Assembly: GCF_001938565.1 (NCBI RefSeq)
Contig: NZ_MSYM01000013.1
Location: forward strand, 1,496 to 65,495
Direction of reading: 5' to 3'
Origin: Rhodoferax antarcticus ANT.BR
Lineage (GTDB): Bacteria > Pseudomonadota > Gammaproteobacteria > Burkholderiales > Burkholderiaceae_C
DNA: 64,000 nucleotides
The notes under the pieces are model-generated. The model was not told where the DNA came from and made no database searches. It was given only the letters and a program-made list of their open reading frames with translations. Of this stretch, positions 1-9,667 are shown piece after piece. Position numbers and translations under genes: made by a program. Positions within the stretch are counted from its first letter, which is position 1, and every line of letters begins with the position of its first letter.

Positions 1-1
1 G

Positions 2-76
2 GTCGCAAGCGACTTGACGGCGGGTCGAGGGAAATGCACAATACGCACCGAAGTCCCCACTTCAATGACGTTATGA
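2..76 (+). CDS. possible C-terminal end of a gene entering from the left
   Basis: An open frame runs from the window edge to TGA at 74-76 and encodes about 24 residues ending TEVPTSMTL. It stops exactly where a strong hairpin terminator begins, which is the main reason to think it is real. Too short to identify. The phage-type regulators just downstream make a prophage gene plausible, but that is inference. Confidence 0.25.
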   Translation, partial: VASDLTAGRGKCTIRTEVPTSMTL

Positions 77-114
77 AACAGCCCGCAGTTGACGCTACGG
101 GCTGTTTCGCTTTT
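75..114 (+). terminator. rho-independent terminator
   Basis: A perfect 11-bp stem pairs GAAACAGCCCG (75-85) with CGGGCTGTTTC (98-108) around a 12-nt loop and is followed by GCTTTT. It ends the gene entering from the left and lies downstream of the converging minus-strand HTH gene. Confidence 0.8.
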
Positions 115-136
115 CCCGGCCTCGATTTCAGTCAAT

Positions 137-409
137 CTATGGCATGGGTGGTATCTCCTTCTGGGTTGGAACTGGTCGCTGTCGCCGATTGGCTGACGGA
201 CCTCTGGGTTTGAAGCTGTAGCGTGTCGGCCACAACTCCCGGATTTCAAGCCCTACCACTTGGGCTATATGCTGTGCCACAGAGTAGGCAGTGATTCGAT
301 CATGAATGACATTGCCAACCACTGCCTGCGACACCCCGAGTTGTCGGGCAAGAAGGGTCTGGGTGACCCCGGCCTGACGCAGTCGATAGTTGATCTCAAA
401 TGCTTCCAT
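137..409 (-). CDS. Ner/Nlp-like small HTH transcriptional regulator
   Basis: This 90-residue protein is one helix-turn-helix domain (about residues 5-60, with QTLLARQLGVSQAVVGNVI as the recognition region) plus a short basic tail (KPRG..NRRQRPV). The layout resembles the small Ner/Nlp regulators of Mu-like phages, which repress the early promoter and oppose the C repressor. It is divergent from the larger HTH repressor at 489 across a 79-bp gap containing a palindromic operator, as in a lysis/lysogeny switch. No other Mu-like genes are visible, so it may be a leftover control module. Family assignment rests on size, HTH and context. Confidence 0.65.
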   Translation of the reverse strand: MEAFEINYRLRQAGVTQTLLARQLGVSQAVVGNVIHDRITAYSVAQHIAQVVGLEIRELWPTRYSFKPRGPSANRRQRPVPTQKEIPPMP

Positions 410-430
410 TCGTGACAGTCTTGCGTGTTG

Positions 431-486
431 GGTGTAAATTATCTCTATTTAGACTACAAATGTCTTTATAGAGATAAATATACACC
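431..486. promoter_or_regulatory. divergent operator between two HTH regulators
   Basis: GGTGTAAATTATCTCTAT (431-448) is repeated inverted at 468-486, the reverse complement of the right arm being GGTGTATATTTATCTCTAT, with one inserted base. A smaller pair AGAC (451-454)/GTCT (462-465) is nested inside. The site fills the gap between the two divergent HTH genes and ends two bases before the ATG at 489. A bound repressor would therefore block both promoters. It is AT-rich compared with both genes. Confidence 0.7.
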
Positions 487-488
487 AA

Positions 489-1181
489 ATGAAACATAAA
501 GATCAAGAAGAATCTGCCTACGACACCCTGGCTGACCTGCCCGCACGTTTGACACAGGTGCTTGCCCATCAGGGCATCTCGCAAACCGAGCTGGCCAGAC
601 AGATTGGCATGTCGCCTGGCTTCATCAGCGATGTGATGCGGGGGCACAAGCGCCCAGGTGCAGAATTCTTCGTGGCTGTGCGCAAGCTCTTCTGCGTCTC
701 AATCGACTGGTTGATGACCGGTGACGGCACCATGATGGGCGATGTCGGTATCCGCCATGAACTGCTGCAGGCCATCCGGATTCAAATTGCCGTCGCCCGC
801 GCGGCGGTCAACGAGGATGATCCCGCTGCACGCGCCTTGCTGATCCTGATTCGCGAGGGGCAGTTGGTCAACGCCGCGAAGGATGCGCATTTTCAGGGTC
901 TGCTGGAGCGTATCGCGCCAACTGACCGCGACCTGGATCTGGCGGTGGAGCTTTACAACGGCCATTTGGGAGCCACCGACCCGATTGTCCAGCGACGCAA
1001 TTTATTGGCGGCCGCCGTGGCTCACTTTGAAGCGCGCAAGCCCATTGACAAGATGGCGGCGATGACGGGCTTGCCCAAAGCAACTGCACCATCACGGGTG
1101 CAGATCAACACCGGTCGGAGACAGCGCATTGCGGGCAACGATTACATCGACCACCGTCCGCAAGGTGACGGGAAGAAATGA
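489..1181 (+). CDS. XRE-family (CI/C-like) HTH repressor
   Basis: This 230-residue protein has an N-terminal XRE helix-turn-helix at about residues 20-75 (VLAHQGISQTELARQIGMSP, then ISDVMRGHKRPG and IDWLMTGDG). That last motif is typical of phage repressor-like proteins in Proteobacteria. The remainder is helical with no recognisable peptidase motif, so it does not look like a LexA-type self-cleaving repressor. It is transcribed away from the Ner-like gene and probably autoregulates through the 431-486 operator. The Lys/Arg-rich tail resembles nothing I recognise. The role as lysogeny repressor or immunity regulator is inferred from layout. Confidence 0.75.
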   Translation: MKHKDQEESAYDTLADLPARLTQVLAHQGISQTELARQIGMSPGFISDVMRGHKRPGAEFFVAVRKLFCVSIDWLMTGDGTMMGDVGIRHELLQAIRIQIAVARAAVNEDDPAARALLILIREGQLVNAAKDAHFQGLLERIAPTDRDLDLAVELYNGHLGATDPIVQRRNLLAAAVAHFEARKPIDKMAAMTGLPKATAPSRVQINTGRRQRIAGNDYIDHRPQGDGKK

Positions 1182-1223
1182 GCCCATCGGCCAACTGATT
1201 TCTTAACCCTCCAGGAGCTCCTG

Positions 1224-1799
1224 ATGAACCAGCAAACCACACCAACGTTGCCATCGCACGCGAATCTTCAAGTCAACCATGGCGACCACCACCGGATCGC
1301 GTTCAGGGACTACCATGAAGGTAGTACGCCGGATTCGATCAAGATGTACCTGGCGACCACACCCGCTGCCCAGATCGACGCGGAGTCCATAGATAACGAA
1401 TTTCTCTTTCGCCATCGTTTTGGGTTCGATGCCAACCCGTCAGGTCGCGCCGAGGTCATTGCATTGAAAAGGCAATTTCAGATAACGGATGCGGAAGTTA
1501 TTTCCTTACGTCGCTCTGGGCTGCTTTCCATCAAACGAACCGAAGTCAGAATTGCGCCAGATCGTTGGGTGCCCATGATGGGCTGGTTTTACCTGAGCAT
1601 CATCAGCATTTATTTGCTGCCCAGCTTGCTTGTCATCGCCTTTGGTTCTGCACCACTATGGAAACAATATCTTGGCGTCATTTCTCTGGGTGCTATCTGG
1701 CTTGCAGCGATATGGTTCGTATGCAAGACTCACATCCATCCGTGGAGGTTGCTCAAGCAAGTTGGCGCTTTGCACGTTGCAGGAAATTCTGCGGTTTGA
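1224..1799 (+). CDS. small membrane protein of unknown function
   Basis: This 191-residue protein is not one I recognise. The first 110 residues are soluble and rich in charged residues. Two hydrophobic segments follow at about 114-136 (WFYLSIISIYLLPSLLVIAFG) and 145-163 (YLGVISLGAIWLAAIWFV), with a short cytoplasmic tail. It lies 42 bp after the repressor in the same direction, so it may be co-expressed. Its Shine-Dalgarno AGGAG is inside the perfect palindrome CAGGAGCTCCTG (1212-1223), which touches the ATG and could lower translation. Superinfection exclusion or lysogenic conversion is possible, but this is speculation from position. Confidence 0.6.
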   Translation: MNQQTTPTLPSHANLQVNHGDHHRIAFRDYHEGSTPDSIKMYLATTPAAQIDAESIDNEFLFRHRFGFDANPSGRAEVIALKRQFQITDAEVISLRRSGLLSIKRTEVRIAPDRWVPMMGWFYLSIISIYLLPSLLVIAFGSAPLWKQYLGVISLGAIWLAAIWFVCKTHIHPWRLLKQVGALHVAGNSAV

Positions 1800-1948
1800 G
1801 GACGGGACGGGAGACCCAAAAGGCTTACCCATCCAAGAGTGATCCATCCAATCTCTGGGAATGGTCACCCTCCGAACTCGATTTTACCCGATCTCCCCCA
1901 TTTATCCCGTCAACTCATTTTTAGCCTATTATTTTTTATAATATATTT

Positions 1949-2608
1949 TTACGTATATTCAAAGAAATGTTTAAATTCTGATAATATGTCTTTGAGCATC
2001 AGTGCAATCGAAGTAGTCAGTAATATTGCCATGATAACGTTAAATCTTCTTAAATTGCCAAAGTTTTTTCTAGCAGTAGCTCCGATCGCGCTCCAACCAA
2101 GAAGTGACAGCGAGCAGGCAAAAAAGAACACTACGCAAAATAATATCAAAGTAAAATTATAGTAATCGCTCGAATTTACATAAATTGATACTGCAGCAAT
2201 GGAAACAATCCACGCCTTTGGATTAGAAACCTGTGCTAATACTCCAGAGAATACGCTTGGTGCTTTGGTAATTGTTTCAGTAAAAGCATCGGTCATATCT
2301 GCCCTTGCAATTCGGTAGGCTAAATTAAGCATGTAAATCGCTCCACCCAGCGTGAGTAGCACGCGCACAATTGGAATTTTAACTATAAGTTCTCCGAGTC
2401 CAATTCCAACGGCCAATAGAACTCCAATAAATCCAAACGTTGCACCGATTACATATGGTATGCTTTGGATAACTCCAAAGCGTGCACCAGACATTGCCAA
2501 TATAATGTTTATAGGCCCAGGACTTGCTGATGTTGCAAATGCAAACACGCTCATCGGCAATAATTTTTCCATTACTAGTGATATGACCATCCCAATTTCT
2601 GAACTCAT
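1949..2608 (-). CDS. LysE/RhtB-family amino-acid exporter
   Basis: This 219-residue integral membrane protein has about six hydrophobic segments and the family signature SPGPIN at residues 29-34. LysE/RhtB proteins export amino acids or amino-acid analogues across the inner membrane. It is the last gene of the five-gene minus-strand operon. Its ATG overlaps the stop of the molybdoenzyme gene by four bases (ATGA), so translation is coupled. The gene is AT-rich, unlike the chromosome from 8.6 kb on. An exporter at the end of a small enzyme cassette suggests the product is an amino-acid-like compound that must leave the cell (inference). Confidence 0.85.
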   Translation of the reverse strand: MSSEIGMVISLVMEKLLPMSVFAFATSASPGPINIILAMSGARFGVIQSIPYVIGATFGFIGVLLAVGIGLGELIVKIPIVRVLLTLGGAIYMLNLAYRIARADMTDAFTETITKAPSVFSGVLAQVSNPKAWIVSIAAVSIYVNSSDYYNFTLILFCVVFFFACSLSLLGWSAIGATARKNFGNLRRFNVIMAILLTTSIALMLKDILSEFKHFFEYT

Positions 2609-3261
2609 AGATCTGCGTCTTTCACTTCCCCAGTACCCTTAAAAAGAAATTTTCTTTGGATATCTACAGCGTAGTATTTTTTAGGTAAAACTGTGCCATC
2701 AACGCTGTATCCAGCGTATTTTTCCCAATACCCGATCTCGTTAAGACGTGTCACCTCAAGTGTAGCTAGACATTTCACGCATTTGTACAGATAAAGACCG
2801 AAATCAATAAGCCGTAAAGGAAAACCGTTTTCAAGCGGTAAGACTTCGCCATCAACATGATATGCTAAAATCGCCTCACGTTCTATTGCTGAAGTTAAGT
2901 GAATTGTTGAATCGTACTTTCCATTTACTGTGCCGACACTATTTTGTTTTATGTACAAAGAGCGATCGGTTATATCCACGCCTGCAATAGCAAGTACATC
3001 TTTGAGTAATACACCTTTCCAGTGTCTCTTAATACTCCATAGACAAACACAAACGTTTCTTCTATGGTAATCAACAGATGGCATGGTCAGAAGCTCTTCG
3101 TATCCGATAGTCACTGGCTTTTCAACTTCACCAAATATTTCTAGTTTCCAGTTTATGAGATCTACAGGACATACACCCTCCTGGAAATATCGGAGTGAAG
3201 ATGGTTTTTTGTGAAGAAATGGGGTTTTCAGAGAACCATCATTCATATATAAATTGCTCAT
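2605..3261 (-). CDS. sulfite-oxidase-fold molybdopterin enzyme
   Basis: This 218-residue protein matches the molybdopterin-binding oxidoreductase domain of the sulfite oxidase/MsrP superfamily. It has INWKLEIFGEVEKPVTIGYEELLTMP (paraphrasing residues 36-61 of the fold's opening), then CVCLWS at 71-76 where Cys71 fits the molybdenum-ligating cysteine, and later ENGFPLRLIDFGLYLYKCVKCL. No Tat or Sec signal is visible, so it is probably cytoplasmic, unlike MsrP. There is no heme or dimerisation domain. It overlaps the FGE-like gene by 23 bp and lysE by 4 bp. The substrate is unknown. In this operon it may oxidise or reduce an intermediate or a sulfur centre. Confidence 0.75.
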   Translation of the reverse strand: MSNLYMNDGSLKTPFLHKKPSSLRYFQEGVCPVDLINWKLEIFGEVEKPVTIGYEELLTMPSVDYHRRNVCVCLWSIKRHWKGVLLKDVLAIAGVDITDRSLYIKQNSVGTVNGKYDSTIHLTSAIEREAILAYHVDGEVLPLENGFPLRLIDFGLYLYKCVKCLATLEVTRLNEIGYWEKYAGYSVDGTVLPKKYYAVDIQRKFLFKGTGEVKDADL

Positions 3262-4000
3262 TTAGTACACATCGAATTCCGACAATATTGTCTCTCAACT
3301 CTGGAGAATAATAATCGCGGCTAGCGCAGCGTAGGCAGTCTTCATCGTGGAGTCCGGATCCACCTCGAACAACATGAGGCAGGTTCTCTGCGGTTGCGTA
3401 AATCGGATCTATCTTAAATTCATCCCACCTGTAATCTGGTGAGATGTTGTCCAAGCACCATTCATTTAAATTTCCTGCCATGTCGTGGCATCCGTTCCTT
3501 GAAACAGCTAAGGGGTGCGCATCAACGCTTGTGCTACGACGATTTAGCTCAGCAGGCTCGCATCCGGGTGCGAAATTCGCCAACGATTCAGTGGGTCGTT
3601 CATTTCCCCACGGATACAGATCTATTCCTCCGCAAGCGGCGTATTCCCATTGAGCCTCAGTTGGAAGTGATTTGCCTTCGAACTTTGAAAACGCTATCGC
3701 CTCCCACCAAGATACACCCGTGACCGGTTGCTTTGGTTGGTTCCAATTGAAGTCATTCCAATAAAGTGGTTTTTGTTCATCTAAGCTCGTAACGAAATCC
3801 CATCCTTGGTCAGTCCAAAACTCTCGTCGTGAGTAACCATCTGCCAAAATAAACTTTGTATATCTTTCGTTTGTGACGGGAAACCTATCTATCCAGAACC
3901 CCGAAAGGGCGATCTTTTTGATTGGTCCTTCATTGGTATAAATTGAACTACCGCGACAGAAAATGGCCGGGGCAATATAAACCATATCTATAGTATTCAT
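3239..4000 (-). CDS. FGE/SUMF1-fold protein (formylglycine-generating-enzyme-like)
   Basis: This 253-residue protein is a single SUMF1/FGE domain. Visible motifs are PVTNERYTKF (41-50), PVTGVSWWEA (92-101), LPTEAQWEYAA (112-122), the NLNEW motif (177-181), RGGS (212-215) and GIRC (241-244). True formylglycine-generating enzymes carry two copper-binding cysteines shortly after RGGS. Here the first position is not Cys; the nearby cysteines are C222 and C225. It therefore looks like a divergent member, such as those in ergothioneine-type or PvdO-type chemistry, rather than a sulfatase activator, and no sulfatase is nearby. It overlaps the DUF2000 gene by 4 bp and the molybdoenzyme gene by 23 bp. 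Confidence 0.8.
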   Translation of the reverse strand: MNTIDMVYIAPAIFCRGSSIYTNEGPIKKIALSGFWIDRFPVTNERYTKFILADGYSRREFWTDQGWDFVTSLDEQKPLYWNDFNWNQPKQPVTGVSWWEAIAFSKFEGKSLPTEAQWEYAACGGIDLYPWGNERPTESLANFAPGCEPAELNRRSTSVDAHPLAVSRNGCHDMAGNLNEWCLDNISPDYRWDEFKIDPIYATAENLPHVVRGGSGLHDEDCLRCASRDYYSPELRDNIVGIRCVLNEQFIYE

Positions 4001-4398
4001 CGTAATAGTTGAAGATTGCCAGTCATTTTATTTATCAATTTTTTACCACCATATGCCATCAACCCGAATATCTTAATCTCATTTAGACTGCTCTTAGAAA
4101 CTTGAATTTCATAGTCATCATACGTCTTTGTTCGCATTGCGCATTCGTTAAACACCACCACAAACAATTCTGATCCACATTGCTCTATGAACATTGATCT
4201 AAGTTTTTCTGTGGAAGCCTGGAGCAACGGTATTGGAATAGTGGTGATACCTAAGAATTGATGCCCATCGGCTGACTCAACTTCCTTCCCTACGAGTTCC
4301 GGGTACTTGGCGCCCAAACTCAGTGTCAAAATGGCAGCAATATTTGCTTTTAAACCAGTTGTTAGTGAATCTTCGACGACAATTACAGCTTTAGTCAT
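3997..4398 (-). CDS. DUF2000 family protein
   Basis: This protein of about 133 residues belongs to DUF2000, a small alpha/beta family with a peptidyl-tRNA-hydrolase-2-like fold. The match rests on the opening (AVIVVEDSLTTGLKANIAAIL), the central GITTIPIPLLQAS, and the FNECAMRTKTYDDYE block. A longer frame opens at GTG 4407. I prefer ATG 4398, because GAGGTGA sits five bases upstream of it, inside the end of the bacA-like gene. The function of the family is unknown. Here it is translationally coupled on both sides in the five-gene cassette, which suggests a catalytic or binding step in the same pathway. Confidence 0.75.
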   Translation of the reverse strand: MTKAVIVVEDSLTTGLKANIAAILTLSLGAKYPELVGKEVESADGHQFLGITTIPIPLLQASTEKLRSMFIEQCGSELFVVVFNECAMRTKTYDDYEIQVSKSSLNEIKIFGLMAYGGKKLINKMTGNLQLLR

Positions 4399-4993
4399 TG
4401 AAATCACCTCTGCCTGCGAACACCGTCCAAAGCATTGGAATTACTCCAGTATCGACCATCTTTATCAATCCATTTTTTTCGCAGGCCAATTGGGTAGTTA
4501 AACAGGCATCTACTTCACCAGCCATAGCCAGACGTGCAGCCTCACCTGTTGAGAATACTTCAATGATGATGTGATCGCAGTTCGGTATCAATTTCGAAAT
4601 TAAATGGGCCGGTGCCCTGTGTGATGCAACTCGCATCGGCGTGCTCCTGAGGTTTATTGCACCGTGCTTGGTAGCCAGCACATAAGATGGTGTATCAAGA
4701 AAGAACGCAGCTATAGGCTTTAACTTGCGAGAAATATAGAATTTATTCACATCTTGATACGCATTGGCGACCAGAAAGGCCGCACTCCCTTTGCTCTTGA
4801 TGACAAATTCCTCTGCTTTCTCGTAGCTGTTAAATAGTTGGACATCGTCTGTAAGATGTTTCGCGGCAAACTCGCTACTAGTACCAGATGGGCCGAGCGT
4901 TGCAATGACTTTACGACAGCAGTCAAACGATTCATCATGACGAATGATGAATTGAAGCAATTGAGTTTCGCCAGAACAGACTATCTCTCTCAA
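4391..4993 (-). CDS. BacA-like prephenate decarboxylase homologue
   Basis: This 200-residue protein resembles Bacillus BacA. Residues 32-41 read TLGPSGTSSE (BacA has TLGPEGTSSE), the middle has FLDTPSYVLATKHG, and the end has IPMLWTVFAGRGDF. The length and the position of the motif about 31 residues from the start also match. BacA decarboxylates prephenate without aromatisation, giving dihydro-4-hydroxyphenylpyruvate for bacilysin; AerD and SalX are relatives. I see neither the TRF motif of prephenate dehydratase nor an ACT domain. The start is TTG with GGGAGGA four bases upstream. It is the first gene of the operon. BacB, BacG and BacF homologues are absent, so the product should differ from bacilysin's anticapsin. 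Confidence 0.75.
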   Translation of the reverse strand: MREIVCSGETQLLQFIIRHDESFDCCRKVIATLGPSGTSSEFAAKHLTDDVQLFNSYEKAEEFVIKSKGSAAFLVANAYQDVNKFYISRKLKPIAAFFLDTPSYVLATKHGAINLRSTPMRVASHRAPAHLISKLIPNCDHIIIEVFSTGEAARLAMAGEVDACLTTQLACEKNGLIKMVDTGVIPMLWTVFAGRGDFND

Positions 4994-5914
4994 TTTATCC
5001 TCCCTACTTGATATGGAATAGTCAGTCCAAGTTCCAAGTGGAAAACGGATTGACTTGCACGAACACAGCGCTGTTCCAAATTCTGTACCGATTGATAGCT
5101 CAAGTATTGTAAAAAATACAGATCACCTAAATTCTACAGTTTCAGTGCATTAAGGCGTGTTAAATCCATACAAATCAATGACTTACGGATGATATTTATT
5201 AGTTTTCAGCAATGATTGTTACGACCTTCGATATCTAAGGAGGAACAGGGGTGTTTTGTACCACGGCGAATGAGGGGCTTTGGAGTTCGATAGCCTTGGT
5301 GAAGCTGGGACGAAATCTGTTGAAAGCCACGCCATCACTGGGTTTTCTATAAATTGTCCCCGGCTTTCCTGACTCGCTTTTTCTGCGAGACAGCCTTTTG
5401 ATCATCGGTATTCAAGGGAATGATGCTGAAGCGTCTCGCAGTAAGTCAGGGTATGAATTCTATAAAACGGCTGTTTGGCAAGCGAAGCGCGACAGGCCGT
5501 AGGCATCAAGCCGAGGAGCGGTGGGCAACCCACGCACCCCGCAGGGGCCGTCCATAGGCTTGTCCTGTGGGCGGGTGGGTTGTCCACGGCGGACGTGAGT
5601 TGTGAGATGCAGAATCTGCTGGGCTTAAAAAGATTGTAAGGAAGGTGAAACTTTCCCTACGCTACAGCGAGACGCATCTGTTTCACGCTACGTCAGGGGC
5701 AGGCGCAACGGCAGCGCACGAACTGCACATGGTTGTTGCGAAGGGTGGCCTGTACACGGCGGGCGCATGTTAAAGATACGTCCGGTTATCGGAACTGTCT
5801 ACATCGAATAGGTTGGGACGCAAAGTCTGAAATATCGCGGTACGTAACAAATGATGACTGATGCGCGGCTAGTGGCAGGTTGCTGCTGGTGAGCATCACG
5901 GCAGACCTCAGTGT
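4994..5914. other. intergenic region upstream of the bacA-like operon, no confident gene
   Basis: AT-rich sequence (4994-5250) presumably carries the operon promoter; I see no convincing -35/-10 pair. From 5250 on base composition rises. A 33-codon frame (GTG 5251 to TAA 5350-5352) has a perfect AAGGAGG upstream but no recognisable product. Inverted repeats CTGCGAGAC (5383-5391)/GTCTCGCAG (5433-5441) and a GTGGGCAACCCAC...GTGGGTTGTCCAC stem-loop (5521-5587) look like debris of mobile elements. Confidence 0.5.
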
Positions 5915-6305
5915 CAAGTAGGTTGCTCAGCGATACAAGTCATTGATAGATATCGTGGGCAGTTTTCGGATGCTGAAGTTGAGCGGGGCTTCAAGGTGGT
6001 GAAGTCGGAGTTGGAGATTGGTCCGGTGTACCACCGCTTGCCTGAACGCATACGCGCCCATGCCTCAATTTGTTTTGTGGCGCGGGGCTGTACCGGGTGA
6101 TGCGTATGCGCCTACGCTCAGCCAATACCGACTTCACGCCGGAGCGGGCGCTGCAGTCGCGCAAGCGGATTCAGCATCACCGTGTCTCACTCAGTGGCGC
6201 GCAGCCGCTGAGCGGGGTGTCATCCATGAGCGAGGAGGACAGCCAAATGCTGAAAGCGCTGAAGGTCAAACAACCGAAAACAAACCGACAATTGAGCCTC
6301 TTGTA
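5915..6305 (+). pseudogene. C-terminal remnant of an IS1634-type transposase
   Basis: A broken frame gives AEVERGFKVVKSELEIGPVY, HRLPERIRAHASICF, then after a frameshift near 6075-6085 YRVMRMRLRSANTDFTPERA and IQHHRVSLSGAQPLSG, ending NRQLSLL at TAG 6303-6305. This is the characteristic C-terminus of IS1634-family transposases. The catalytic N-terminal two thirds are missing or unreadable and the frame is shifted, so it is inactive. It separates the AraC gene from the bacA-like operon and marks past transposition in the island. The 5' limit is approximate. Confidence 0.75.
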
Positions 6306-6673
6306 GGGGCACGTTCTGAACTCGAACCCAATAAAACAAGGACTTACGTCGTTAGCTGTCTAACTCTGGCTTACAGCCCACTTCTATATGAATTGTGCGC
6401 TTTACAAGTTTAATCATGGCTGGTATATTCCACGCCGCCTGCGGCGTTCCCTCTCAACGCGAACGTCAGTGAGTCGTATGGTCTCGTTGGTACCTGATAC
6501 CCAATCTCTTCAAGTTAAAAGCCTTTTATCGTTAAAAGCCACGAATTCGAGTCAAAATGGCACAAAGGTATGGCTCGGAAGGCCTGATTTCGAAGTAGTC
6601 GTCGCTAACTTGAGAAGATTGATCCGATATCCCACCCCTTGGGGCGGGGTTTCCCATCTGTTAAGTCAGATAA
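6306..6673. other. non-coding interval
   Basis: No supported gene. A GC-rich imperfect palindrome around 6631-6650 (CCACCCCTTGGGGCGG) lies just past the stop of the minus-strand AraC gene and may slow transcription, but it has no U-run, so I do not call it a terminator. Confidence 0.4.
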
Positions 6674-7510
6674 TTAGTGTCCAAGGATTTGTTTAGGCGT
6701 TATACCGGTAGTTCTTTTAAAAGCCTTGATAAAATGAGCCTGATCATAGAATCCCAGTTTGAACATTACATCCAACGGACTTATGCCTCTAAGTAGCATT
6801 GCCTTGGCACTCGCCATGCGTCGCACAGTCCAATACGCATAAGGCGATATTCCGACTTTCGCACGAAAGACGTTTACGAGATAATTGGGCTGCAATCCAA
6901 CCATTTTGGCCAGATCGCCAAGACTAACCGCCTTGCTGTTAAGTTCAAATGGACTTAAGGCTATTGAATTTGCTAAACTGTCAAGATAGTCTTTGACTCG
7001 CTGAACTGCAGCAACCTCTTGTCCAGCCTTGCGGACAGAAAGTCCAGCATAGCGAGTCATTAGGGTCTCCAACGTCAGCGTCAGTTGGGTGTCAACTGAT
7101 ATTTTCCAACCGGAATTTTTGGGTCTACTTAGTGCGTATGCGAGTGCGTCAAAAAGTTTCCGGATTTTCCCATCGACATCATGGGCAACACAATTCTGGA
7201 AACCTTTAATGGGTTGGTGATCAAGCATTTCCCTCAATTCGTCTTCACTAACGTAAAGCATTTTGTATTTCAGCGACTTAGTTACCGCGTACCCAGTGTG
7301 GGGTTCATCTGGATTCATCAGTGAGACGGTGCATGCTGGAAGCACTTCTTTGGAACCTCTTACAAAGTTGCCGCCAACGCCACCTTCAATCATTCCAATT
7401 GCAAATGCGTCATGGGAATGTTTTCCAAATGACTCACCTTTGATGCAGACATCAAGCATTTCTATGCCGCGATGCCAGGTTAAAACGTGCAATGCATTCT
7501 TATGAGTCAT
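6674..7510 (-). CDS. AraC-family transcriptional regulator
   Basis: This 278-residue protein has an N-terminal cupin-type sensing domain (about 20-160, with FGKHSHDAFAIGMIEGG) and a C-terminal double helix-turn-helix AraC domain (about 185-278, with LAKMVGLQPNYLVNVFRAKVG and the closing GFYDQAHFIKAFKRTTGITP). Its GC content is closer to the bacA-like operon than to the core chromosome. AraC proteins of this layout often control neighbouring LysE exporters. The operon starts 1.7 kb away, in the same direction and downstream, separated by IS debris. A link to that operon is therefore plausible but unproven. Confidence 0.85.
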   Translation of the reverse strand: MTHKNALHVLTWHRGIEMLDVCIKGESFGKHSHDAFAIGMIEGGVGGNFVRGSKEVLPACTVSLMNPDEPHTGYAVTKSLKYKMLYVSEDELREMLDHQPIKGFQNCVAHDVDGKIRKLFDALAYALSRPKNSGWKISVDTQLTLTLETLMTRYAGLSVRKAGQEVAAVQRVKDYLDSLANSIALSPFELNSKAVSLGDLAKMVGLQPNYLVNVFRAKVGISPYAYWTVRRMASAKAMLLRGISPLDVMFKLGFYDQAHFIKAFKRTTGITPKQILGH

Positions 7511-8104
7511 TCCCTACATACTCCCTTGAAACCAATGATTCGCTGTGGTTTTATTACAGCACACAGTGTCTAGCCTCTGGCAGACCGGACAATTATCCCT
7601 ATCAGTGCCTAGAACCTTGATGCAGCCGGAGTGTAAGGTTTGTGATCATCGTTGAAGACTCCACTCGAGCGCACCTGAGGCACTTCGATGGTGACTTCAA
7701 CCATGCGGGCCAGGACGGACTTGTTTTGTAGCCGTTGGTGTAGACACGCTGGACACAGCGCTCACAGGGGGGTGTTTGCTGGGCGCTCAATGCGCGATTT
7801 TTCGTTGATCAGTATGCGCAGGGCTTCACCTGCACCATTCAGACCTTTGGCGAGCAGGCAGGCTTAGTCATTAAGCTTGGTACGTTGTAGCTTCGAAATA
7901 CGTTCTTTCTGCGGTGGTTCAGGCTTGCCAGTCAGCTTCCTGGGGGGCCTCCGGCGGCCTGGCAGGGGCCTAATTTAAAAAGCATCAAATCCTAGACTCA
8001 AGAGTCAAGCAACCCCGACCTTGCAACGGGACTTGTGTGGGTGTCCAGCCACTGATGATCAATACCAAGATCGTTTGAACTTCTGTTCAGCCTGACCCTG
8101 ATGC
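7511..8104. other. degenerate sequence, probable mobile-element debris
   Basis: No intact gene. On the minus strand, shifted frames between about 7900 and 7615 read LRILINEKSRIERP, then VLARMVEVTIEVPQVRSSG and VFNDDHKPYTPAASRF before a stop near 7615. These look like the tail of a decayed protein that I cannot name. Its closeness to the IS21-type end at 8105-8225 suggests it belonged to a transposable element. Confidence 0.35.
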
Positions 8105-8225
8105 GGCAGTGGCGTTTTAAATCGGAATGGCTGGCAGGGTCTGGACCGGAATGGGTGGCATTTGTGAATCGGAACGACTGGCCGGTTTGAATCGGAACGA
8201 CTGGCGTTTTTGACCGGAATACGCA
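8105..8225 (-). mobile_element. terminal repeats of an IS21-family element
   Basis: Read on the minus strand, the segment begins TGCGTATTCCGGTC and then carries several copies of the unit CCAGTCGTTCCGATTC and close variants (CCACCCATTCCGGTCC, CCAGCCATTCCGATTT). IS21 elements end in TG...CA and carry such multiple subterminal transposase-binding repeats. No istA or istB is recognisable beside it, so this is an orphan end. The outer CA at 8224-8225 marks the junction with the CHRD gene. Confidence 0.7.
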
Positions 8226-8236
8226 CGTGTGCCGCA

Positions 8237-8581
8237 ATGTCCGAAGACCTCAAGCTAACTGGCGCGCAGGAAGTCCCGCCTGTCAGCACATCCGCAACCG
8301 GATCAGGGTCGATCATGGTCGCTGACGACGGCGCAGTCATCAAAAGCCTCAAGACCACAGGTGTTGTCGGCACCGCTGCTCACATTCACACCGGCGAGAA
8401 AGGTGTAAATGGGCCGCCCATCGTCACGCTGACCAAGACAGCCGATGGCGTTTGGTCGGTGCCGCCCGGCGCCAAGCTGAGTGCAGAGCAGGCCAAGCTT
8501 TATAAAGCAGGTGGGCTGTACCTGAACGTGCACTCTGAAGCGCACAAGGGCGGCGAGGTTCGTACCCAGTTGACGCCATAG
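8237..8581 (+). CDS. CHRD-domain protein, N-terminally truncated by an IS end
   Basis: The 114 residues from ATG 8237 form a nearly complete CHRD domain: LKLTGAQEVPPVSTSATGSG at the front, then AAHIHTGEKGVNGPPIV and LYLNVHSEAHKGGEVRTQL. CHRD proteins are normally exported, with a signal peptide directly before this motif. Here the IS21 end stops 11 bases upstream, so the original start, promoter and signal peptide are gone. A frame from TTG 8210 would begin inside the IS end. It is probably non-functional as a secreted protein, though the domain itself is undamaged. Confidence 0.7.
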   Translation: MSEDLKLTGAQEVPPVSTSATGSGSIMVADDGAVIKSLKTTGVVGTAAHIHTGEKGVNGPPIVTLTKTADGVWSVPPGAKLSAEQAKLYKAGGLYLNVHSEAHKGGEVRTQLTP

Positions 8582-8620
8582 GGTGCGATTGCCGATCGCG
8601 CCCATGGACGCCTGCACCGC

Positions 8621-9667
8621 GTGGTAAAGCGCACCTGGACATCGATCTGGGCGCGGGGGATTGCCAGCAGTCTCGCGGTGATGCGCAAGCTGGCAAAGCC
8701 TGCGCTTAAGCGCCCACCCGCCCGCAAGGCAAAGGCTGCTGCGCGTGCCCCCGTTCCTATAGGTACTGGCGCGGTGAACCGGGTCAGCGCAAACGCCAAG
8801 CAAAGCACGGGCCGCTGGTCAGCAGGGGTAGCGCTTAGCACGGGCGGTGCGAGCCGCTATAAGCTGTATCGCCCGCCCGGCCTCCAGCCCGGCGAACGGG
8901 TACCGATGCTCGTCATGTTGCACGGCTGCAACCAAGACGCTGATCGGTTCGCCGCCAGCACGCGGATGAATCAGATCGCCGCGCGTGCACATTTCGTCGT
9001 TCTCTACCCCGAGCAAGATCACCTGGCAAATCCGCAGGGCTGTTGGAACTGGTACGACACCAAATCAGGCCGTGCCTACAGCGAAGCGGCGCGGGTCATG
9101 GCCGTTATCGAGCAGGCCTGCCTGAAGTACCCGGTGGACCGGCAACGGGTGGCGGTTGCGGGGCTGTCTGCTGGCGCTGGCATGGCTGCGCTACTGGCCA
9201 CGCGCTACCCTGAGCGCTTCAAGGCGGTGGTCATGCACTCCGGCATCCCACCAGGCACCGCAAACTCCGCCCTTACCGCGCTGCGTGCGATGCAAGGGCG
9301 ACGTGCTACAGCACCTTTACCAGCCACGCCCCCGACGATGGGCGCAGGCTTGGCGCCGCTGCTGGTGATCCACGGCACAGTCGACGCCGTGGTTGACGTG
9401 CGCAACGGACGCGCCGCCGCGCAGGTATGGGCCGACGCTGCAGACGCCCGGGCCGCGCCAGAGCGTGACGTCCAGCGGGGCAAGCGCTACGCCATGAAGG
9501 TGACCGATTTCAAGCACAAAGGCAGCACGGTGGTCACGCTCGCGGTGATTGGCCGCCTGGGTCACGCCTGGAGCGGCGGTGCCGCGAAACAGGCCTTCAG
9601 CGATGCCAAGGGGCCCGACGCGTCACGCATGGTCTGGGCCTATGCCGCAAAGCAGTTCCGTAAGTGA
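8621..9667 (+). CDS. PHB-depolymerase-family esterase (LpqC-like)
   Basis: This 348-residue alpha/beta hydrolase belongs to the extracellular PHB depolymerase/feruloyl esterase-like family. It has the oxyanion-hole HGCNQDA (101-107), CWNWYD (141-146), lipase box GLSAG (181-185, Ser183), an acidic residue region LLVIHGTVDAVVDVRNG and a late histidine in GRLGHAWSGG. It probably hydrolyses short-chain polyesters or other esters. The N-terminus is basic and Ala-rich (residues 21-47) without a clear signal peptide. The start is GTG 8621, or ATG 8681 if shorter. It lies 39 bp after the CHRD gene. Confidence 0.8.
   Translation: MVKRTWTSIWARGIASSLAVMRKLAKPALKRPPARKAKAAARAPVPIGTGAVNRVSANAKQSTGRWSAGVALSTGGASRYKLYRPPGLQPGERVPMLVMLHGCNQDADRFAASTRMNQIAARAHFVVLYPEQDHLANPQGCWNWYDTKSGRAYSEAARVMAVIEQACLKYPVDRQRVAVAGLSAGAGMAALLATRYPERFKAVVMHSGIPPGTANSALTALRAMQGRRATAPLPATPPTMGAGLAPLLVIHGTVDAVVDVRNGRAAAQVWADAADARAAPERDVQRGKRYAMKVTDFKHKGSTVVTLAVIGRLGHAWSGGAAKQAFSDAKGPDASRMVWAYAAKQFRK

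Follow-up and report, generated by a model that had tools for sequence, protein, structure and literature searches.

We analysed a 64,000-nucleotide stretch of Rhodoferax antarcticus ANT.BR DNA (contig NZ_MSYM01000013.1, positions 1,496-65,495; hereafter the window) that carries a compact five-gene cassette, headed by a BacA-like gene and accompanied by an AraC-type regulator. The most plausible reading of the cassette is a mobile unit for biosynthesis and export, which probably diverts an aromatic amino acid precursor into an exported small molecule. With moderate confidence, we propose that the mobile operon and its regulator make and export a small amino-acid-like metabolite. A BacA-like first gene, tailoring proteins and an amino-acid exporter, all under a single regulator, together point to biosynthesis plus export. 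The five minus-strand open reading frames (ORFs), described as overlapping in an earlier note on this DNA, are intact at 1949-4993, with neighbouring ORFs overlapping by 17, 4, 23 and 4 bases. That extent holds for the five genes and overlooked the AraC regulator (6674-7510), which belongs to the cassette and is split from the operon by a 1,680-base gap containing IS1634 debris. The features are as follows.

4391-4993, minus strand: BacA-like protein of 200 residues (gene 1); TTG start with GGAGG ahead; prephenate-dehydratase fold without the dehydratase catalytic residues
3997-4407, minus strand: DUF2000 protein of 136 residues; GTG start; PF09391, 1.9e-34
3239-4000, minus strand: stand-alone FGE-fold protein of 253 residues, leaderless; Pfam FGE-sulfatase, 2.1e-47
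2605-3261, minus strand: small, leaderless molybdoenzyme of the sulfite-oxidase/MsrP fold (SUOX), 218 residues; Pfam Oxidored_molyb, 6.4e-29; invariant C71-x-C73
1949-2608, minus strand: LysE-type exporter of 219 residues; Pfam LysE, 2.9e-12
6674-7510, minus strand: AraC-type regulator with a cupin-like sensor and a helix-turn-helix (HTH) domain by Pfam; position orthologous to that of the Halomonas cassette regulator
6070-6306, plus strand: remnant of the C-terminal part of an IS1634-type transposase; two of four matching records are annotated as IS1634 family transposase

The family names proposed earlier were borne out. The DUF2000, FGE-like, molybdoenzyme and LysE proteins all exceed their Pfam cut-offs, and gene 1, which falls below its own (18.2 bits against 25.2 for the Pfam prephenate dehydratase (PDT) model), is BacA-like by its residues and its place in the tree.

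Gene 1 encodes a protein of the BacA type rather than a prephenate dehydratase. Our alignment comprised 42 rows, 17 of them BacA-like (window included) and 25 dehydratases. The Thr of the TRF motif, which together with ENS we take to mark prephenate dehydratases, is present in 25 of 25 dehydratases and replaced by Met in all 17 BacA-like rows; the Glu of ENS occupies the aligned column in 25/25 dehydratases and 0/17 BacA-like rows, two of which have the string ENS at another place. The tree separates the two sets at 100/100, so that the phylogeny, which could have put gene 1 among the dehydratases, placed it outside them. Hence a prephenate dehydratase was rejected on the residues (none of 17 with Thr or Glu) and on the tree split, in agreement with the earlier assignment to the BacA kind.

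The 17-row clade includes the Streptomyces goshikiensis protein annotated BacA, which is encoded by the first gene of a BacA-cupin-SDR-dehydrogenase-MFS-aminotransferase operon and served as the BacA reference of a set that left B. subtilis BacA, AerD and SalX outside. It also includes Phaeobacter TdaC (label tdaC). Next to the Met at the TRF position, Trp and Phe are found in 14 of the 17 rows, among them the window and S. goshikiensis proteins, and the TdaC group (3/17) has Phe and His at the same motif positions. The window protein thus shares both the clade and the Met/Trp/Phe pattern of the BacA from a bac-type operon. Within the clade it joins its Halomonas counterpart at 95/95.

The AlphaFold2 model of the BacA-like protein (pLDDT 79) has the PDT catalytic-domain fold. 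Structural comparison using Foldseek returned PDT structures as best matches, namely 6vh5 (E 7.9e-10, TM 0.62), 2qmx and 3mwb, and gene 1 queried by sequence against solved structures found nothing. A periplasmic binding protein was also rejected, since the protein is leaderless and its best folds are dehydratases, with binding-type folds ranked lower; counting against this rejection, the Pfam PBP_like model is touched by 3 of 14 BacA-like family members (best 3.9e-4). BacA, AerD and SalX are described as diverting prephenate to non-proteinogenic amino acids (PMC9147277, PMC10157211).

The same cassette recurs in other bacteria. When 84,980 genomes were scanned with a two-row SUOX alignment, 39 stretches matched and 15 of them encode a relative; the scan requires exact short peptides, and 15 loci is therefore a lower bound. 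All six genes (BacA-like, DUF2000, FGE-like, SUOX, LysE and AraC) are present at 10 of the 15 loci (L012, L014-L022), in Halomonas, Xenorhabdus, Vibrio and Aliivibrio, with the structural genes in the order of the window. The recurrence of one five-gene order in other bacterial orders indicates more than chance. Thus the co-occurrence check proposed in the earlier note, once run, argues for a dedicated conserved operon. Neither the window nor any of the ten complete loci has another gene (cupin BacB, dehydrogenase, aminotransferase or ligase BacD) between the BacA-like gene and LysE, and the earlier view of a route lacking BacB, BacG and BacF holds there. The FGE-like and SUOX ORFs, taken from the first start, overlap in six of the ten and lie apart in four. 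In addition, tblastn against plasmids placed relatives of SUOX, FGE-like and DUF2000 next to one another on a Vibrio halioticoli plasmid, a locus that on reading shows all five genes in the cassette order and an AraC regulator behind them.

Incomplete versions also occur. The Xenorhabdus bovienii cassette is divided between two contigs (L023, L025), one carrying AraC, LysE and a portion of SUOX and the other the remainder. In Ca. Burkholderia verschuerenii (L013) the contig starts within the FGE-like gene and also carries SUOX, LysE and a convergent AraC gene. Vibrio metschnikovii (L024) and a Vibrio metagenome-assembled genome (L026) keep just part of the BacA-like gene and the SUOX end; the first half of the former runs directly into the latter (L024 7502-8909, L026 3011-3445), as if by one common internal deletion. 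In two of the ten loci counted as complete, the BacA-like gene is the damaged one: that of Vibrio sp. J1-1 (L018, 6229-6893) is split over two frames, and that of Xenorhabdus khoisanae (L020, 6558-6812) matches over its C-terminal part only. An aminotransferase gene lies near the X. khoisanae cassette (L020, 10706-12037) and a PhzF gene near that of V. halioticoli (L008, 3097-3966), neither recurring in the flank-scanned loci.

The cassette is horizontally moved, under purifying selection and rare; this mobile, patchy distribution was missing from the earlier note. The GC content of 1949-4993 is 41.9% (39.9-43.9% in 1-kb windows), compared to 59.7% from 8.6 kb on, so that the contrast described before stands and the 38-40% then given was slightly too low. 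Cassette and flank differ similarly in two other high-GC genomes, Halomonas (43 and 63%) and G124, from the host's family (39 and 62%, over 986 bases only). In seven AT-rich Xenorhabdus, Vibrio and Aliivibrio loci, the V. halioticoli plasmid apart, cassette GC lies 0.2-5.3 points below the flanks. Flanking genes vary by locus, transposases occur in three of the eight loci whose flank ORFs were scanned, and a transposase gene with an integrase core (L058) adjoins the left edge of the window. The dN/dS ratio is 0.04-0.32 in all 21 estimable gene pairs, which cover all five genes, and two further pairs were saturated. Gene 1 is single-copy in the host genome and was found in none of 59 other relatives. 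Among 398 other genomes from the host's family, the SUOX profile at E 1e-30 matched only G124, and it matched none of 368 further genomes of the class. What G124 shows of the cassette is just part of SUOX and LysE, at a contig edge; a search of G124 for the FGE-like gene found nothing, and the Xenorhabdus FGE gene had no match in E. coli by distant blastn. Carriage by a provirus or phage was rejected, since none of the 10 stretches matching the pattern in a viral-contig scan encodes a relative.

The four remaining structural proteins are placed firmly by Pfam. The DUF2000 protein scores 118.9 bits against the PF09391 cut-off of 25, its nearest solved structure is 2gax (E 1.2e-4), and the cassette copies are weakly grouped in the DUF2000 tree (72/69). 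Stand-alone DUF2000 genes of Pantoea adjoin a divergent Lrp gene (L011 4983-5405, L009 5977-6399), one of them next to aroD.

The FGE-fold protein has EgtB as its best NCBIfam model (129 bits in the window against a cut-off of 360), which is matched by 12 of 12 members. Compared with solved structures, the family profile is closest to EgtB (6.4e-31) and the single sequence to FGE (8.3e-24). The alignment to EgtB (4x8b) starts at chain residue 174 of 447 and covers the C-terminal domain; the N-terminal domain, in which EgtB holds its iron, is absent. The active-site cysteine pair that provides the copper ligands of FGE is not conserved either. By sequence alignment the first Cys falls opposite a gap and the second opposite C222, where Halomonas has N and the remaining 10 of the 12 members have Y, whereas by profile alignment the first falls opposite the invariant H218 and the second inside an insertion. 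An AlphaFold2 model of this protein reached a pLDDT of 43 and was left unused. Compared to the sulfoxide (selenoxide) synthases EgtB, SenA and OvoA, the cassette protein resembles the EgtB C-terminal domain most closely by profile but lacks the N-terminal domain and scores far under the equivalog cut-offs.

The Moco domain of the molybdoenzyme is complete, covering profile positions 5-169 of 169. C71 is invariant in 12 of 12 members and aligns with the Cys of YedY (1xdq), presumably its Mo ligand; a second Cys two residues on (C73) is equally invariant, at a position occupied by Glu in YedY. MsrP (YedY) is periplasmic and made with a leader, whereas the first 35 residues of the cassette enzyme contain neither a hydrophobic leader nor RR. 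Thus it shares with MsrP the Moco domain and the ligand-position cysteine, and differs in lacking a leader and in the extra Cys. Its scores stay far under the equivalog cut-offs for MsrP (55.6 bits against 207), SorA (63.5 against 600) and SoxC (47.7 against 420). The host genome encodes MoaC for molybdopterin.

The exporter belongs to the LysE superfamily (46.9 bits against 25.6; eight hydropathy peaks above 1.6). The cysteine/O-acetylserine and homoserine/threonine exporter models each match nine of nine members far under cut-off, the former being nearest for the window protein, likewise far under cut-off. The AraC regulator shares 42% identity with that of Halomonas, where the gene sits upstream of the BacA-like gene at a distance of 126 bases. 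The window has this arrangement too, apart from the insertion sequence debris; in the other nine complete loci the regulator gene lies downstream.

Several known systems are comparable to the cassette. Like the bacilysin/anticapsin (bac) operon, it is compact, includes an exporter and has a BacA-type protein to start the route. However, the cupin BacB, the dehydrogenases, BacF, BacD and the MFS exporter of the bac operon give way to DUF2000, FGE-like, molybdoenzyme and LysE proteins. A second type of BacA-like operon has the order Dabb-DUF2000-PaaK-BCAT-BacA-like-CMD-OCD-LysE with a divergent Lrp gene (L002 4645-10731, L004 4747-10856, L003 4706-10764); the Pantoea and P. aeruginosa plasmid copies were annotated, and Photobacterium ORFs of like order were read by eye. 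These PaaK-type operons share the BacA-like protein, DUF2000 and the LysE exporter with the cassette but lack FGE-like and sulfite-oxidase-fold genes, having instead a ligase, an aminotransferase, OCD, CMD and an Lrp regulator. That DUF2000 and LysE accompany BacA-like genes in both speaks for an early step in common and for products of one kind. The stand-alone Pantoea DUF2000 genes fall within the PaaK-operon copies in the DUF2000 tree. The Phaeobacter tropodithietic acid (tda) cluster is related through TdaC, but differs in the residues beside the TRF position and in its partner genes. The five-family combination itself was not found described in the literature searched, which left subscription papers mostly outside and does not imply absence in print.

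BacA-like genes were seen in further contexts. Streptomyces plasmids have Dabb-PaaK-BCAT-PDT-OCD-DUF1330-PhzF beside NRPS or PKS genes (L005 3190-8840, L006 3188-8732). A Pseudoalteromonas plasmid (L032 5127-12525) encodes a PDT-like protein of the TdaC/S. xylosus type, an aminotransferase, two ATP-grasp proteins and a DAHP synthase. On a Staphylococcus xylosus plasmid (L030 3763-6504), the BacA-like gene sits beside ATP-grasp and DMT transporter genes, in a locus cut at the end of the circular record.

We propose the following route. The BacA-like enzyme would decarboxylate prephenate and leave the ring non-aromatic, yielding a dihydro-4-hydroxyphenylpyruvate. DUF2000 may then act on this or a nearby intermediate, in the place held by the cupin BacB in bacilysin, and the FGE-like protein and the small molybdoenzyme would carry out a joint redox tailoring step. 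If the product is an amino acid, its nitrogen would come from a host aminotransferase or an amino-acid co-substrate, that is, from outside the cassette, because no aminotransferase is encoded in it. LysE would export the product, and the AraC protein would control the operon. Of the pathway outlined in the earlier note, the dedicated conserved operon, the BacA kind of gene 1 and the lack of BacB, dehydrogenase and aminotransferase held up; prephenate as substrate and a dihydroaromatic product are what we infer.

A prephenate decarboxylase is the hallmark of pathways to unusual amino acids, which are often antimicrobial, and here the known bacilysin tailoring enzymes are all replaced by DUF2000, a small cytosolic molybdoenzyme and a protein of the EgtB fold that lacks the iron domain. 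The same minimal gene set, with regulator and exporter, moves among Burkholderiales-like hosts, Halomonas, insect-associated Xenorhabdus and marine Vibrionaceae. It is small enough to be expressed whole, which makes the product and a first DUF2000 function directly testable.

Several observations weigh against this proposal. The cassette BacA-like proteins form one group only weakly (24/40; 36% of bootstrap trees), the bootstrap of the BacA-like tree is unsettled, with 25 of 39 inner branches open, and two of its rows, S. goshikiensis and TdaC, sit on long branches. Searched against solved structures, the family profile found no dehydratase, giving chance-level matches to ribosomal L18 and thiolase, and fold comparison alone finds the dehydratases. 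The FGE-like protein lacks the defining parts of both FGE (the cysteine pair) and EgtB (the N-terminal domain), the cassette has no aminotransferase, and the GC contrast in Ca. B. verschuerenii is smaller (55 against 64%). Moreover, TdaC, whose role we take to be in tropodithietic acid, belongs to this clade as well; the substrate could therefore be something other than prephenate, and clade membership is no proof of prephenate decarboxylation. It is possible, though in our view unlikely, that the cassette is biosynthetic but leaves prephenate unused, the PDT-fold protein dehydrating or decarboxylating another substrate such as a ring compound or a CoA-derived acid, by analogy with TdaC. Besides the shared clade, the cassette BacA-like proteins are just 27-43% identical to the window protein, so their substrates may differ; the window motif, however, is that of bac-type BacA (Trp and Phe) and unlike that of the TdaC group.

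The rivals to biosynthesis fare less well. The molybdoenzyme matches MsrP models in 10 of 10 members, the exporter matches amino-acid efflux models, and the regulator has an AraC ligand-binding domain, all of which would suit a detoxification, repair or export cassette in which LysE and the MsrP-like enzyme handle an oxidised or toxic imported amino acid and the other proteins modify it. We regard this as improbable, given that the cassette enzyme is leaderless, that in the complete loci the operon starts with a BacA-like gene, and that BacA-like genes sampled elsewhere have biosynthetic surroundings that include NRPS, PaaK or bac-type genes. Degradation of acyl-homoserine-lactone signals by a GqqA-like acylase, with LysE exporting a product, is scarcely credible: GqqA (7am0), a quorum-quenching acylase of the PDT fold, is among the best Foldseek matches (ranks 5-7) and some LysE relatives export homoserine lactone, but plain dehydratases rank equal or higher, indicating a shared fold only, and the molybdoenzyme and FGE-like gene would be left unexplained. 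A defence system was rejected, as PADLOC matched none of the five cassette proteins. Within the proposed biosynthesis and export of an amino-acid-like metabolite, there is a distinctly slim chance that a thiol such as cysteine is joined to a prephenate-derived dienyl ring and that LysE releases a ring-substituted cysteine. The BacA-like enzyme would supply the diene, the EgtB-fold protein would form the C-S bond as a sulfoxide, and the MsrP-like enzyme would reduce it to a thioether, an order of steps to which we attach equally little weight. This would explain the missing aminotransferase and fit the EgtB-fold and MsrP-like proteins, yet the FGE-like protein lacks an EgtB-type iron domain. 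If true, it would represent a novel type of route to sulfur amino acids, with roles for DUF2000 and a cytosolic sulfite-oxidase-fold enzyme.

A structured RNA was rejected for window positions 1-9000, where Rfam gave no match. A promoter scan yielded 9 hits where chance predicts 9.1, and terminators were fewer than chance. Left of the cassette, window positions 137-1799 contain a 191-residue ORF without a Pfam match (1224-1799) and two HTH regulators, with a GC content of about 54%.

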